The notes under the pieces were generated by a model, which worked only from the letters and a program-made list of their open reading frames with translations, made no database searches and was not told the DNA's origin. Below, one piece after another: positions 25,537 through 32,602 of a DNA stretch of 64,000 nucleotides (its first letter is position 1; each line of letters opens with the position of its first letter). The stretch comes from a bacterium (lineage in GTDB: Bacteria; Electryoneota; Electryoneia; Electryoneales; Electryoneaceae). The stretch covers positions 1 to 64,000 of the forward strand of contig JAHLLH010000003.1 in assembly GCA_020444265.1 (NCBI GenBank). Direction: 5' to 3'. The position numbers and the translations under genes were made by a program.

Positions 25537-25741
25537 TATGCGGCGAGGTGATGGAGCCTAAGTCATTTCATTTTTTATCTGTGGGTACCCATCCACTCTT
25601 AACCTCGCATCGATCTGCAGGCGTCACTCTTCCAAGAAGCAATGGTTCAGGCAGGGGCACCACTTTTCGTTTTTTTCTGGCATCCGACTATTCAAGCTCT
25701 TATTTTCGCTATGCTGGAGCCCACTTGAATTTTGAGGGATG

Positions 25742-26815
25742 ATGGATACGACGCTTTCACAGCGTAAAAGCGAACACCTGAAGCTGGTTGCAGAGGGACA
25801 GGTGTCTCATCATGGGACAAACCTGCTCGAGGAGGTGCACCTGTTGCACCAGGCCTTGCCGGGGCTCGATCTCGACGAGGTCAGACTCGACTCCACCTTC
25901 TTCAACCGTACCATCCATGCGCCTTTGATGATCACCAGCATGACCGGCGGGGCCGAGTATGCAGGGCGCTTAAACCACGGTCTGGCACGGGTTGCTGAAA
26001 AGTTAGGCATTCCTTTTGCAGTAGGCAGCCAGCGAGTGATGATCCGTCACCCGGAAACCACCTCGGACTTCGCGGTTCGTGAGGTGATCCCGAACGGCGT
26101 CCTGCTTGGCAACATTGGCGCGGTTCAGCTGCTCGAACATCCGGTTGAGGTCATCGCCGGCTTGGCGGAAGCGATTGATGCGGATGGCCTTTGTGTCCAT
26201 TTGAATGTGGCGCAGGAGCTGATGCAGGTGGATGGCAACCGAAGTTTCCGTGGCCTACTCGAAGCGATGGATCGTCTGATGGAAAAGATGGACGGTCGCA
26301 TCCTGGTCAAGGAGACCGGTGCCGGTTTGTCGCCGCAGGTGTTGCAGAGCCTGCACACGATTGGTGTACCCTACATTGATGTTTCTGGTGCAGGGGGAAC
26401 CTCGTGGACAAGGGTGGAAAGCCTGCGGGAAGCCAACGCACCGCTGCATCAGAGCGGGGAACTGTTTGGCGATTGGGGCATACCAACTGCGGTCTGCGTT
26501 GCTGCAGCCCATTCCACGTTCGGAGACAAGGCGACGATCATCGCTTCCGGTGGCATCCGAAATGGGCTTGATGCTGCACGTTCCATCGCCCTGGGCGCGG
26601 ACATCGCAGGCTTTGCTCGGGAGGTGCTCCTCCGGTTCCTCGAGGGGGATGAGGAGGGTGCAATTGGTTACATTAATGGGTTCATCCATGATTTGAAGCT
26701 TGCCATGTTGCTCAGCGGAGCGGTGGATGTTTCTGCGATGAAGCAGGCACCACGTGTCCTTTCCGGTGAGTTGCATCGCTGGCTCCATACACTTGGCCTT
26801 TTGGACGGGGAGTAA
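25742..26815 (+). CDS. fni: Isopentenyl-diphosphate delta-isomerase, type 2 (FMN-dependent)
   Basis: Interconverts IPP and DMAPP using reduced FMN. Family blocks are visible: RKSEHLKLV at the N terminus, NRTIHAPLMITSMTGG, VGSQRVMIRHPET, HLNVAQELMQVDG, VKETGAGLSPQV, DVSGAGGTSW and IIASGGIRNGLDAARSIALGAD (FMN phosphate site). Length 357 is typical. ATG 25742 is favoured over ATG 25739 because GAGG sits 4-5 nt before it. It is the first gene of the mevalonate operon, and its stop almost touches the next start. Confidence 0.95.
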   Translation: MDTTLSQRKSEHLKLVAEGQVSHHGTNLLEEVHLLHQALPGLDLDEVRLDSTFFNRTIHAPLMITSMTGGAEYAGRLNHGLARVAEKLGIPFAVGSQRVMIRHPETTSDFAVREVIPNGVLLGNIGAVQLLEHPVEVIAGLAEAIDADGLCVHLNVAQELMQVDGNRSFRGLLEAMDRLMEKMDGRILVKETGAGLSPQVLQSLHTIGVPYIDVSGAGGTSWTRVESLREANAPLHQSGELFGDWGIPTAVCVAAAHSTFGDKATIIASGGIRNGLDAARSIALGADIAGFAREVLLRFLEGDEEGAIGYINGFIHDLKLAMLLSGAVDVSAMKQAPRVLSGELHRWLHTLGLLDGE

Positions 26816-26817
26816 CG

Positions 26818-29139
26818 TTGAACGGAAAAACGGCGAAAAGCCGGCGGGAGATACCTTCCCTGGGGGATCAAACCCAGCGTTTAGAACCAGTATCCTCTCG
26901 CATTCCCGGCTTCTACCGGTTACCGGTGGAACGCAGGCTCGCGCACCTGAAGCGCGGGTTCAACCTTTCGGACGAACAGATCGCTGACCTGCGCGAAGGC
27001 CGTGCACTCCGCATCGAACATGCGGTCAACATGGTTGAAAATGCGGTCGGTGTTCATGGCATGCCACTCGGCATCGCCCTCAATTTTGTCGTCGATGAGC
27101 TCGAATACCTCGTGCCAATGGCCATCGAGGAAGCATCGATTATCGCCGCTGCCTCAAAAGCAGCCCTGATGATCCGTGCCGGTGGCGGGTTCCGAACCTC
27201 CGTGGATGATCCGATCATGATCGGCCAGATCCAGGTGATGGACCTCGAGGACCCGGAGGCTGCGTCGCAGCAGATTCTCGAACGCAAGCAGGAGATCATC
27301 GATCAGGCCAATCTGGCCAACCCGAGAATGGTCCATCGTGGTGGTGGGGTACGCGACATCGAAACACGTGTCCTGCCCGCGACCGACCGGGTCGGCCCAA
27401 TGCTCATCGTCCACCTGCTGGTGGATGTCCGCGAGGCGATGGGCGCCAACATGATCAATTACGCCTGCGAAGCGGCGGGTCCGGTCGTCGAAAAGATCAC
27501 CGGGGGCCGTGTCAATCTGCGAATTCTGTCCAACCTGGCAGATCGCCGTATCGCACGCGCTGAGTTTTCCCTCCCGTTTGAATTCCTGAAAACCGAAGAG
27601 ATGAGTGGGGAAGAGGTGGCAAAGCGAATGGTCGAAGCGGGCGAATTCGCCTGGGCTGACCCCTACCGTGCCACCACCCACAATAAGGGCATCTTTAATG
27701 GCATCGGTGCCGCCGCCCTCGCTTTGGGGCAGGATTGGCGCGCCATCGAAGCGGGTGGGCATGCCTTCGCCGCACGGGATGGTGTCTACCGCAGCTTGAC
27801 CCGATACTGGATAGAAGACGAAACCCTGTACGGCTCAATCGAAGTGCCAATGCAGGTCGGCTCGGTCGGTGGAGCACTCAACTCCCACCCCGGAGTCCGC
27901 ATCCTTCGTCAGATATCCGGGGTCCGAACTGCTAAAGAAATCGCTTCCCTCTTCGCATCTGTTGGCCTGGCGCAGAACTTTGCCGCCTGCCTCGCATTGA
28001 GCACGGTGGGGATTCAGCAGGGACATATGGCCTTGCACGCTCGCAGTGTGGCGATCAGTGTTGGTGTGCCGCCCGAGATGGTGGAAGGTGTCGCCAGCGA
28101 AATGATTCGCCGTGGCGATGTCAAGGTGGCCGTAGCGGAGGAGATTTTCGAATCCATGCAGCACGCCGAAGAGGTGCAGGATCAAGGGGACGCTCTGCCG
28201 ATCGAAAGCTATGCGCCAGGCAAGGTGGTCCTCTTTGGTGAGCATGCCACGGTGTACAACTACCCGGGCATCACCGCCGCGATTGATATCGGGATGACCA
28301 TCAAGGTAAAGCGTGATGGCGATGGCCCCCGTTTCTTGAACCCGCATTTTCACCAGGTCTTCTCTGCCCCTGAATCCGATGAGGATATTCGCTTGTTCAG
28401 TCAAGCAGTGGACGAAGCCCTGGAACATTACAGCCTGCAGCGTGAACCCCTTGCCATTCAGATCGAGTCACAACTGGTTCCAGGGATGGGATTGGGTTCC
28501 TCAGCGGCCTTCTCCGCAGCCTTGATCTCCGCCTTGCGGACGTATCGGCAGAGTGATGGCCGCTTGACCCTCGCGGGCAACATGTTCGAAGATGTTCAGC
28601 GTCTGGAACAGATTTTCCACGGTCATCCGTCCGGTATGGATGCGGCCACTGTGCTTTCGGACGGTGTCATCTGGTTCCGTAAGGGCCCGCCGCGTGAGAT
28701 CGTCCCGATCCATCTACCGCGCCCGATGTCCGGACTCGTCTGCCTTGTAGAACCGGGCGCACGGACCATTGACATGGTGCGCCAGGTCAAGCAGAGCCGT
28801 GACTTGAACCCGAAACGGGTCGGAGCAATCCTCGATGATATTGGCCAGTTGACCAGCGATGCCGGCATTGCGCTAGGAACTGGCGATGAGGTTGAAGTGG
28901 GCCGTCTGATGTTCCGCAATCATGAATTACTGGCACGTCTTGGTGTCTCGACACCGAAACTCGATGCGGCAGTATCAACTCTGCTGGACCATGGTGTCCT
29001 TGGTGCGAAGCTGACCGGCAGTGGTGGTGGTGGGGCTGTGGTCGCGCTGGTACGTCCAGAAGATCAGAAAGCGCTGGTCCACGAACTTGCTGAGAAATTC
29101 CCGATGGTTTATCCCTTTACTGTGAGAGCGTCGGCATGA
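26818..29139 (+). CDS. Fusion protein: class II HMG-CoA reductase (N) :: mevalonate kinase (C)
   Basis: 773 residues with two enzymes in one chain. Residues ~25-445 are class II HMG-CoA reductase: ENAVGVHGMPLGIALNF, EEASIIAAAS (catalytic Glu ~103), THNKGIFNG (Lys ~290), GQDW (Asp 306) and QQGHMALHA (His ~403). Residues ~460-773 are a GHMP kinase of mevalonate-kinase type: YAPGKVVLFGEHATVY, PGMGLGSSAAFSAAL and KLTGSGGGGAVVAL. There is no stop or frame change at the junction near 28190. It would make mevalonate and phosphorylate it at once. Start TTG 26818 has GGGGAG 5 nt upstream. The next gene overlaps by 4 nt. Confidence 0.93.
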   Translation: MNGKTAKSRREIPSLGDQTQRLEPVSSRIPGFYRLPVERRLAHLKRGFNLSDEQIADLREGRALRIEHAVNMVENAVGVHGMPLGIALNFVVDELEYLVPMAIEEASIIAAASKAALMIRAGGGFRTSVDDPIMIGQIQVMDLEDPEAASQQILERKQEIIDQANLANPRMVHRGGGVRDIETRVLPATDRVGPMLIVHLLVDVREAMGANMINYACEAAGPVVEKITGGRVNLRILSNLADRRIARAEFSLPFEFLKTEEMSGEEVAKRMVEAGEFAWADPYRATTHNKGIFNGIGAAALALGQDWRAIEAGGHAFAARDGVYRSLTRYWIEDETLYGSIEVPMQVGSVGGALNSHPGVRILRQISGVRTAKEIASLFASVGLAQNFAACLALSTVGIQQGHMALHARSVAISVGVPPEMVEGVASEMIRRGDVKVAVAEEIFESMQHAEEVQDQGDALPIESYAPGKVVLFGEHATVYNYPGITAAIDIGMTIKVKRDGDGPRFLNPHFHQVFSAPESDEDIRLFSQAVDEALEHYSLQREPLAIQIESQLVPGMGLGSSAAFSAALISALRTYRQSDGRLTLAGNMFEDVQRLEQIFHGHPSGMDAATVLSDGVIWFRKGPPREIVPIHLPRPMSGLVCLVEPGARTIDMVRQVKQSRDLNPKRVGAILDDIGQLTSDAGIALGTGDEVEVGRLMFRNHELLARLGVSTPKLDAAVSTLLDHGVLGAKLTGSGGGGAVVALVRPEDQKALVHELAEKFPMVYPFTVRASA

Positions 29140-30107
29140 TCCAGGCGGTCAGCGCCCGTGCCTATGCCAACATCGCGCTGGTGAAATACTGGGGGAAACG
29201 GGACAACGAACTGAATGCTCCCGCGACTCCGTCGATTTCCCTCGCGCTCGAGGCACTCCGTACCGATACAACAATCGAACGGATCAGCGCTGGCCCGGAC
29301 CGTGTCCAGCTCGATGGTAAGACAGCGGACCAGAAGACCACCTCGCGAATTCAGCAGTATCTCCAACTTTGGCGCGACCTCGACTTGCTTGAGGGCGCGT
29401 TTTCCATCTCCAGCACGAATACCTTCCCGACTGCAGCAGGTCTCGCTTCGAGCGCATCCGGATTTGCCGCCCTGGCGACGGGGCTGGCAGCCCTGGCGAA
29501 AAGGAAGGTGAATCGACGAGAACTGTCGCGTCTCGCACGGCGGGGAAGTGGTTCGGCGGCACGTTCCATCCCGGGAGGCATCTCAGCCCTACCTGCCGGT
29601 CCCGACCCGACCGCTCGTAAAATCATGTCCCCGGATGCTATCCCGTGGGGTATGGTGGTGGCGGTGGTGCATGCGCCAGCGAAAGAGATCGGCAGCACCG
29701 AGGGGATGGTCCGCAGTCGTTTGAGCAGCCCCTATTTCAATGCCTGGGTGAGGACAGCACGACATGATTACCGTCGCATGCGCTACGCCTTCCAGGAGAT
29801 GGACCTCGATCAGGTTGGGGCGATTACCGAAGGCAATGCCCTTGCGATGCACGCCTGCATGATCGCGACACGGCCATCACTGGTCTACTGGTCGGAAGCG
29901 ACTGTCGAGTTGTTGCGACAGGTGCGTAACTGGCGTGAAGAAGGTTTGCAGGCCTATGCAACCATTGATGCCGGACCGCATGTTGTCTTCCTCTGCCCGC
30001 GCGAGCAACTCGAGGATGTCCGTCAACGAGCGGCGAATGTCGATGGGGTCGATGACTGTTTTGCCAGCCTGCCCGCGCCCGCTGCCCGGGTGATGAAATG
30101 GAGCTGA
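29136..30107 (+). CDS. mvaD: Diphosphomevalonate decarboxylase
   Basis: Makes isopentenyl diphosphate from mevalonate 5-diphosphate with ATP and loss of CO2. 323 residues. Diagnostic motifs: ANIALVKYWGKRD at the N terminus, TNTFPTAAGLASSASGFAAL (GHMP motif 2), RRGSGSAARSIPGGI, and YATIDAGPHVVFL, whose aspartate corresponds to the catalytic Asp of the yeast enzyme. Overlaps the fusion gene by 4 nt (ATGA) and the phosphomevalonate kinase gene by 10 nt. Confidence 0.96.
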   Translation: MIQAVSARAYANIALVKYWGKRDNELNAPATPSISLALEALRTDTTIERISAGPDRVQLDGKTADQKTTSRIQQYLQLWRDLDLLEGAFSISSTNTFPTAAGLASSASGFAALATGLAALAKRKVNRRELSRLARRGSGSAARSIPGGISALPAGPDPTARKIMSPDAIPWGMVVAVVHAPAKEIGSTEGMVRSRLSSPYFNAWVRTARHDYRRMRYAFQEMDLDQVGAITEGNALAMHACMIATRPSLVYWSEATVELLRQVRNWREEGLQAYATIDAGPHVVFLCPREQLEDVRQRAANVDGVDDCFASLPAPAARVMKWS

Positions 30108-31012
30108 ATAGCGTCCGCATTCCCGGCAAAGTGATGTTGTCCGGCGAGTATGCGGTGCTCTATGGCGCCACTGCTGTGCTGATGCCTGTCCCGCGTTTCC
30201 TTACCATTTCCGAATCCCTTGGCCCGTCCACCAACCCTTCGCCTGTCCTCGAACATGCGCTTCGTGAACCGATCGAACCGATTGCCGTTTGGGAAGAAAA
30301 ATACCCCTTGAGGTCGGTCGAGGTGGACCGGAGTGATTTTTACATCGAGCAGGACGGCAGGTTGATCAAGCTTGGGATTGGTTCCTCGGCAGCGGAAGCG
30401 GTGGGAGTGATCGCCTTGCGACTGGAGCGAGCCGGAGTTGCCTGGCAGGACAACCGTGAGCTTGTCGCGACCCTCGCGGAACGTGCTCACCGTCGCGCTC
30501 AAGGTGGAATAGGCAGTGGGGCGGATGTTGCGGCAGTAGCCTATGGCTGTCCGATTCGTTTTAATCGGTCCAACGATACCATCACGGTCGACCCGATTGA
30601 TACCGCCACCTCACCAGTATCGTTGCCTCTCGCCTTGCTGCACAGCGGAACAGCAGCCAATACACGTGTGCTGGTTCGTCTTTTCGAAGGATGGGCCTGT
30701 TTGGGGGATCGTCAAAAGCACCAACTCGAGCAGCTTGTGGCCCTTAGCGATGAGCTTGCACCGTTCTGGTTCGGCGGTGATTCGGGAGTGCTGCTCGATA
30801 TGCTTACACGCTTCGACGAAACGATGAGTCGTTTGACGGACGAGGCGACACTGCCTTGGAAGACTACGGTCCATCGTGATATCGAGACATGGGCGAAGAA
30901 GAATGGTGGAGCAGCAAAGCCGACCGGAGCGGGTGGGGGCGATCTTGTGCTGACGGTGGGTAATCTCCCCCTTTCTGAGAGGTCAGAACCGCGAATAGAC
31001 CTCCAGACCTGA
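30098..31012 (+). CDS. Phosphomevalonate kinase (GHMP family)
   Basis: 304 residues, a GHMP kinase distinct from mevalonate kinase: RIPGKVMLSGEYAVLYGAT, KLGIGSSAAEAVGVIAL, the PMK-type block QGGIGSGADVAAVAYG, and PTGAGGGDLVLTV near the C terminus. By family and position it converts mevalonate 5-phosphate to the diphosphate, completing the HMG-CoA-to-IPP route with the three preceding genes. Length is slightly below typical bacterial MvaK2. Its start lies inside the mvaD gene. Confidence 0.9.
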   Translation: MELNSVRIPGKVMLSGEYAVLYGATAVLMPVPRFLTISESLGPSTNPSPVLEHALREPIEPIAVWEEKYPLRSVEVDRSDFYIEQDGRLIKLGIGSSAAEAVGVIALRLERAGVAWQDNRELVATLAERAHRRAQGGIGSGADVAAVAYGCPIRFNRSNDTITVDPIDTATSPVSLPLALLHSGTAANTRVLVRLFEGWACLGDRQKHQLEQLVALSDELAPFWFGGDSGVLLDMLTRFDETMSRLTDEATLPWKTTVHRDIETWAKKNGGAAKPTGAGGGDLVLTVGNLPLSERSEPRIDLQT

Positions 31013-31109: not shown

Positions 31110-31574
31110 ATGGTTCGTACGCTTCTTCTATCCATATTGATCCTCTTCACCGCCCTCTGCTTCGCGGCAGCTCCCAATGATCCGACTGCTGCCCCCGAAA
31201 TGCCTGATTTGGAATCCCTGAAGCTTCAGACCACGCCTTCCGGGTTGCAGTATGCGATCCTCGAACGAGGGGATGACATCTTCACGCCGGGGACTGGTCA
31301 GACTGCTGTCGTCCACTATACGGGGTGGCTGGAGAACGGAACCAAGTTTGACAGTTCGTACGATCTTGGTGAACCGATCCGCTTCTCCGTCGGGAAACGG
31401 CAGGTGATTCAGGGTTGGGATGAAGGAGTCGCCATGATGGGAAAGGGTGCGCACTGGATCCTCGTTGTCCCGCCGAAACTTGCCTACGGCAAAGAGGGGA
31501 AGCTGGGCGGTAAGGTTCCAATTCGTGGCAACACCACACTCATTTTTAACCTCACATTATTGGATATCGAATAG
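31110..31574 (+). CDS. Secreted FKBP-type peptidyl-prolyl isomerase
   Basis: 154 residues with a signal peptide (LLLSILILFTALCFAA) cleaved near A-A-A-P-N. The FKBP domain (~45-153) carries TAVVHYTGWLENGTKFDSS, VIQGWDEGVAMMGKGAHW and LIFNLTLLDIE; the usual Y-G at the active rim is LAYGKEGKLGGKVPIRGNT. It catalyses cis-trans prolyl isomerisation, probably in the periplasm. First of three consecutive FKBP genes, 98 nt after the mevalonate operon. Confidence 0.9.
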   Translation: MVRTLLLSILILFTALCFAAAPNDPTAAPEMPDLESLKLQTTPSGLQYAILERGDDIFTPGTGQTAVVHYTGWLENGTKFDSSYDLGEPIRFSVGKRQVIQGWDEGVAMMGKGAHWILVVPPKLAYGKEGKLGGKVPIRGNTTLIFNLTLLDIE

Positions 31575-31648: not shown

Positions 31649-32161
31649 ATGCGTAAAGTGTTAGCACTTGCCCTCATTGCAGTCGTGTTGGTCGGTTGCT
31701 CGGGCAAAAAAGATGCAAAAACAGATAGCGAACAGACTCATGAGGCGACTCATGAGACGGCTGTTCAGGATCAAAAGGTGGAGGTGCCTGCGGACGGCAC
31801 CATGCCCGACCTTTCCGGGATCACCTGGATGGATGGTCCGGAAGGACTGCAATACCATTCGCTCAAAGATGGTGATGGCCAGCAGCCGCAGAATGGCCAG
31901 CGTGTGGAAATGAGCTACACCGTCTGGTTTACCGATGGCAAAATGCTCGACAGCAGTCGCATGAAAAACACGACGTACACCTTCACCCTAGGCAACCGTG
32001 AGGTGATCCGCGGTTGGGATGTTGGCGTCGCTCAGATGCAACAGGGCGATCGTTGGCTGCTCAAGATTCCGCCGAACCTTGCCTATGGCGAGCGTGGTCG
32101 TCCTGGCGTGCCACCGAATGCGACCCTGATCTTTGACCTGGAAGTCGTCGGTATTCAATAA
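31649..32161 (+). CDS. FKBP-type peptidyl-prolyl isomerase, lipoprotein
   Basis: 170 residues. The N terminus LALIAVVLVGCSGKK is a lipoprotein signal with cysteine anchor. A charged Glu/His/Thr linker precedes the shared segment MPDLSGITWMDGPEGLQYH and an FKBP domain (YTVWFTDGKMLDSS, VIRGWDVGVAQMQQGDRW, LAYGERGRPGVPPNATLIF). A lipid-anchored folding factor is the likely role. Ribosome site GGGAG is close upstream. The middle of the three paralogues. Confidence 0.92.
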   Translation: MRKVLALALIAVVLVGCSGKKDAKTDSEQTHEATHETAVQDQKVEVPADGTMPDLSGITWMDGPEGLQYHSLKDGDGQQPQNGQRVEMSYTVWFTDGKMLDSSRMKNTTYTFTLGNREVIRGWDVGVAQMQQGDRWLLKIPPNLAYGERGRPGVPPNATLIFDLEVVGIQ

Positions 32162-32218
32162 GTTGACGTCCGGGTACACCAATTGAGTTGTACCATGAAG
32201 GCAAACGAGGATCCAGAT

Positions 32219-32602
32219 ATGGCCAAACCGACTACCGAGATGCCGGATCTTTCCGGTATCACATTCCAGTCGGGTCCTGAGGGGCTCGAATACCATGTGA
32301 TCACCAGCGGTGATGGCGTCAAGGTGCAGAACGGCCAGACCGCCGTAGTGCATTACACTGGCTGGTTGATGAACGGGAAGAAGTTTGACAGCAGCCGTGA
32401 CCGTGGAAACACATTTGAATTTGTCCTCGGCCAGGGTCGTGTGATCCGTGGCTGGGAGCTGGGTGTAGCCTTGATGAAAATCGGAGACCGTTGCCTGCTT
32501 AAACTGCCTTCGACAATCGCCTATGGCCCCCGTGGCGCGGGCGGAGTCATTCCGCCGAATGCCACCCTCATCTTTGATGTGGAAGTGGTTGGTGTGAAGT
32601 AA
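32219..32602 (+). CDS. Cytoplasmic FKBP-type peptidyl-prolyl isomerase
   Basis: 127 residues from ATG 32219 (GAGG about 8 nt upstream); ATG 32195 is an alternative. No signal peptide, so probably cytosolic. It shares TEMPDLSGITF with its lipoprotein neighbour, followed by a canonical FKBP domain: TAVVHYTGWLMNGKKFDSS, VIRGWELGVALMKIGDR and GVIPPNATLIFDVEVVGV. It appears to be a duplicate that lost its export signal, or the reverse. A terminator follows. Confidence 0.9.
   Translation: MAKPTTEMPDLSGITFQSGPEGLEYHVITSGDGVKVQNGQTAVVHYTGWLMNGKKFDSSRDRGNTFEFVLGQGRVIRGWELGVALMKIGDRCLLKLPSTIAYGPRGAGGVIPPNATLIFDVEVVGVK

Follow-up and report, generated by a model that had tools for sequence, protein, structure and literature searches.

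An in-frame HMG-CoA reductase–mevalonate kinase fusion in a bacterial mevalonate operon, a probable bifunctional enzyme

Does a single bacterial reading frame carrying the motifs of two consecutive mevalonate pathway enzymes encode one working bifunctional protein? The question is raised by a locus of the Electryoneaceae, contained in a stretch of 64,000 nucleotides (contig JAHLLH010000003.1, positions 1 to 64,000), here referred to as the window. It is highly probable that this frame, originated by the in-frame joining of adjacent genes, encodes a natural enzyme of isoprenoid biosynthesis leading from HMG-CoA to mevalonate and then to mevalonate-5-phosphate. Support for the bifunctional reading comes from the fused frame, the intact catalytic sets, the operon, the conservation of the protein and the pathway context.

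The fusion gene and its two domains

A Shine-Dalgarno-like GGGGAG (nt 26807–26812) precedes by 5 nt the TTG start of the fusion (Table 1). Equivalog models of both enzymes were matched above cut-off, namely TIGR00532 (NCBIfam) with 371 bits (cut-off 260; aa 25–408, model positions 20–395 of 395) and TIGR00549 (NCBIfam) with 209 bits (cut-off 163; aa 466–744, model positions 1–276 of 276), thus ruling out a chance open frame, and PF00368, PF00288 and PF08544 (Pfam) each exceeded their own cut-off on the fusion protein. The first-pass annotation had proposed a single 773-codon frame with the full motifs of HMG-CoA reductase (HMGR) and mevalonate kinase (MK), in this order and catalyzing consecutive steps, with a junction near nt 28190; all of this was borne out, the frame being unbroken and the junction falling inside the linker.

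Table 1. Features of the fusion gene and of the surrounding operon (nucleotide positions refer to the window, residues to the fusion protein).
Feature	Position (nt)	Strand	Residues	Remarks
Type 2 isopentenyl-diphosphate isomerase, idi2	25739–26815	+		TIGR02151 368 bits (cut-off 281); stop codon 2 nt upstream of the fusion
HMGR–MK fusion gene	26818–29139	+	773 aa	uninterrupted frame, TTG start, TGA stop
Class II HMGR part	26890–28155	+	25–446	includes C-terminal flap helices; TIGR00532, PF00368, alignment to 1qax
HMGR catalytic codon	27130–27132	+	E105	
HMGR catalytic codon	27685–27687	+	K290	
HMGR catalytic codon	27733–27735	+	D306	
HMGR catalytic codon	28024–28026	+	H403	
Interdomain linker	28156–28212	+	447–465	MQHAEEVQDQGDALPIESY
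MK part (GHMP family)	28213–29136	+	466–773	TIGR00549, PF00288, PF08544
MK motif 1			466–476	APGKVVLFGEH
MK motif 2			554–564	VPGMGLGSSAA
MK HGHPSGMD stretch				with E597 and D608
MK motif 3			731–739	KLTGSGGGG
Diphosphomevalonate decarboxylase (MVD)	29136–30107	+		TIGR01240 250 bits (cut-off 171); ATGA overlap with the fusion stop
GHMP kinase, presumed phosphomevalonate kinase	30098–31012	+		overlaps the decarboxylase gene; PF00288 26 bits

When aligned with the P. mevalonii and Delftia HMGRs, the reductase part reaches approximately aa 446, thus indicating that the C-terminal flap helices are complete. Residues E105, K290, D306 and H403 are identical in 37/37 aligned rows and align, in the comparison with 1qax, with the catalytic residues E83, K267, D283 and H381 of P. 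mevalonii HMGR (PmHMGR). On the kinase side, K469, S562, E597 and D608 are identical in all the 30 fused rows. Mean identity within the clade of fused proteins to which the window belongs (FA) is 69% for HMGR, 64% for MK and 22% for the linker, and within a second clade (FB) 70%, 67% and 19%, respectively, with linkers of 18–27 aa and about 20% identity among fused homologues. Conserved domains on either side of a freely varying tether are the pattern that a working bifunctional enzyme should leave in an alignment.

An AlphaFold2 model, obtained with the alignment described above as input, reached a mean pLDDT of 84 and a pTM of 0.58, with pLDDT below 50 at aa 451–458, inside the linker, so that the relative placement of the two domains is not predicted. 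By Foldseek, the HMGR part of the model matched PmHMGR with a TM score by target up to 0.96, and the MK part matched the L. major and M. mazei MKs with 0.83–0.86; among solved structures no chain spanning both domains was found.

That one half could be inactive or regulatory, for example with a kinase fold merely sensing a downstream metabolite, might be argued from the fact that fused partners can degenerate and from the GLGGSA found in place of GLGSSA in the MK half of FB members. We give this reading very little credit, however, since the kinase half retains every catalytic motif, comes close to the reductase in its conservation within clade FA and is the only MK above cut-off in the window genome.

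Two observations on kinase parts of other genomes are added here. The fused kinase of G385 (L040, L106) scores 204 bits and a second, free-standing MK scores higher (240 bits), while in L022 (G021, a fragmented MAG) an in-frame TAA occurs near the end of the kinase part of the fusion.

As for the cofactor, class II HMGRs are reported to carry Asp at a specifying site if they depend on NAD(H), and either Tyr or His if they depend on NADP(H) (PMC12292504). At this NADH-specifying Asp site FB members have His and, following the residue rule, probably prefer NADPH; the window protein has Asn at this position (residue 168) and may use NADH or NADPH.

Operon context and direction of the pathway

The order idi2, HMGR-MK, MVD and GHMP kinase is retained in relatives. 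The closest solved relatives of the product of nt 29136–30107 are diphosphomevalonate decarboxylases. The product of nt 30098–31012, scoring 64 bits with TIGR00549 and 54 bits with TIGR01220, both under cut-off, is presumed to be the phosphomevalonate kinase from its position in the operon. Directly downstream, on the same (+) strand, three tandem genes resembling FKBP-type peptidyl-prolyl isomerases were observed, two confirmed by Pfam (nt 31110–31574 and 31649–32161) and one judged by its translation alone (nt 32183–32602).

Elsewhere in the window genome, an archaeal-type HMG-CoA synthase (G000:C2:139440-140543, minus strand) was identified with TIGR00748 (498 bits, cut-off 353), the archaeal-type model resolving the weak signal given by PF01154, and its gene is followed by those for a thiolase and a DUF35 (OB_ChsH2_C) protein. 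This cluster, which resembles the archaeal thiolase/HMG-CoA synthase/DUF35 complex, probably supplies the HMG-CoA, and the route from acetyl-CoA to DMAPP thereby appears complete on paper. DXR, an enzyme of the MEP pathway, was not found in the genomes of the window's family (7/7) and is present in 7/8 sampled genomes from other families of its phylum; HMGR was found in 0/32 genomes examined from these other families. Two members of the phylum having DXR and no HMGR, L082 (G001) and L083 (G025), also carry an archaeal-type HMG-CoA synthase scoring 541 bits, far above cut-off.

Since TIGR00532 carries the name "degradative", the direction of the reaction does not follow from the reductase part by itself. 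A catabolic role, with the reductase working in reverse, as it does in Pseudomonas mevalonii, to turn mevalonate into HMG-CoA and the kinase acting as a side branch, would agree with this name and with the nearest solved HMGRs, which are of the degradative P. mevalonii/Delftia type. It is nevertheless very improbable, the fusion gene being located within a complete IPP operon, in a genome in which DXR was not found and a biosynthetic archaeal-type HMG-CoA synthase cluster is present, and in a cell that would have no identified IPP route without it. The complete pathway from acetyl-CoA to DMAPP, as read from sequence and context, makes the biosynthetic direction of the reductase most likely.

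In the biosynthetic reading, the N-terminal class II HMGR would reduce HMG-CoA to mevalonate using NAD(P)H, and the GHMP-family MK in the same chain would phosphorylate mevalonate with ATP to mevalonate-5-phosphate, which the products of the two following genes would convert to IPP, with Idi2 yielding DMAPP. We infer that both activities are exerted in vivo. The likely gains would be a fixed 1:1 stoichiometry and the co-location of both activities in the HMGR oligomer, trapping mevalonate as its phosphate. A more demanding version, in which the MK tethered to the HMGR flap domain of the oligomer takes mevalonate directly or nearly so and imposes a shared feedback control, the fusion having arisen at least twice independently, seems to us rather unlikely.

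Distribution and origin of the fusion

The fusion was counted in 46 genomes, two of them truncated by a contig end within the kinase part. It was present in 7/7 genomes examined of the window's family and also in records labelled Zixiibacteriota (four) and Planctomycetota (one); one contig of the window's own family is labelled Calditrichaeota. Within a sample of 386 bacterial genomes, a class II HMGR scored above cut-off in 31, of which 13 carried the fusion; seven of these 13 belong to the window's family, and outside its phylum 6/24 were fused. HMGR was found in 37/40 genomes of the phylum of G381, with 29 of the 30 inspected loci fused and the remaining one ending at a contig end, and in 3/10 genomes of the phylum of G339, all fused (3/3), one ending at a contig end inside the kinase. 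No match spanning 80% of the query was found among plasmid records, the best matches being with HMGR alone.

An assembly or sequencing artefact joining two neighbouring genes, conceivable for a draft genome of 19 contigs and given that HMGR and MK genes are adjacent yet separate in some bacteria (L039), has practically no chance, the identical in-frame fusion recurring in 46 genomes of different projects, in G381 on a single 4.98 Mb contig. This recurrence excludes a chance or assembly origin and confirms the fused frame as genuine.

These counts speak against the pairing being uncommon, as the first-pass annotation had supposed; its alternative, that the pairing is undescribed, held, no description of an HMGR–MK fusion being found in the searchable full-text literature, which omits most subscription papers. 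The refutation named in that annotation, a well-populated known architecture, is thereby borne out for "well-populated" but not for "known". The pairing is a well-populated and apparently undescribed variant of a known pathway, although sequence databases must already contain it.

Besides the fusion, several FB genomes contain an additional, distant match to HMGR, located in frames of about 520–560 aa and perhaps class I (G111:C59:4015-4419 and G252:C26:1282-1644, among others). L006 (G388), a MAG labelled Planctomycetota, contains both the fusion and a DXR gene, reflecting either both pathways or mixed bins.

FA and FB, the latter composed of the phylum of G381 and of G278, each form one group at 100% in both the HMGR and the MK tree, indicating that the two halves were inherited together. 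A third fused protein, from G385 (clade FC), clusters with unfused HMGRs (support 98/95). The HMGR tree speaks against one origin for FA, FB and FC (AU p 0.033), while the MK tree does not reject it (p 0.094); a single origin of FA and FB is neither shown nor rejected (AU p 0.36 in the HMGR tree and 0.079 in the MK tree). The fusion spans three HMGR clades and likely had at least two origins. The gene order, idi2, fusion, MVD and PMK-like kinase in FA and MVD, PMK-like kinase and fusion in FB, fits separate origins without proving them. L039, which is unfused and branches as the sister of FA in the HMGR tree (support 95/86), has separate idi2, HMGR, MK and MVD genes in the FA order, with the HMGR stop at nt 2824–2826 and a possible MK ATG at nt 2840 in a different frame, leaving 13 bp between the genes; as judged from the sequence, this arrangement looks like the precursor state.

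Significance and comparison with known systems

What is new in the fusion is how known enzymes are arranged, not the chemistry. The fusion would be a second natural one containing HMGR, joining consecutive steps around a rate-limiting enzyme and fixed across whole lineages, and it would offer metabolic engineers a ready-made HMGR-MK module. It also singles out one family relying on the mevalonate pathway within a phylum otherwise mostly dependent on MEP, and warns annotators that entries of about 770 aa named "HMG-CoA reductase, degradative" can be bifunctional. Real surprise would come only with channelling, if true; otherwise the finding is neat and useful to specialists.

With P. mevalonii MvaA (1qax) the window protein shares the entire fold and all four catalytic residues (45–48% identity in fold alignments) but it adds an MK after the flap domain and has Asn168 at the site of the NADH-specifying Asp. 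With the M. jannaschii (1kkh) and L. major (2hfs) MKs it shares the three GHMP motifs and the catalytic Lys/Glu/Asp set, whereas its kinase is joined behind HMGR and not free-standing. MvaE (thiolase-HMGR) and IspDF are natural fusions of the isoprenoid pathways (PMC13001223). IspDF likewise unites two enzymes of isoprenoid synthesis, but those of non-consecutive steps of the MEP pathway (PMC13001223). MvaE of Enterococcus (acetyl-CoA acetyltransferase/HMGR) is, like the window protein, a bifunctional mevalonate pathway fusion with a class II HMGR. No thiolase domain was matched in the window protein (Pfam, NCBIfam), ruling out an MvaE-like fusion: in MvaE the thiolase precedes HMGR in the chain and catalyzes a step separated from that of HMGR by the HMG-CoA synthase reaction, whereas in the window protein the partner is MK, C-terminal to HMGR, and the two steps are consecutive.
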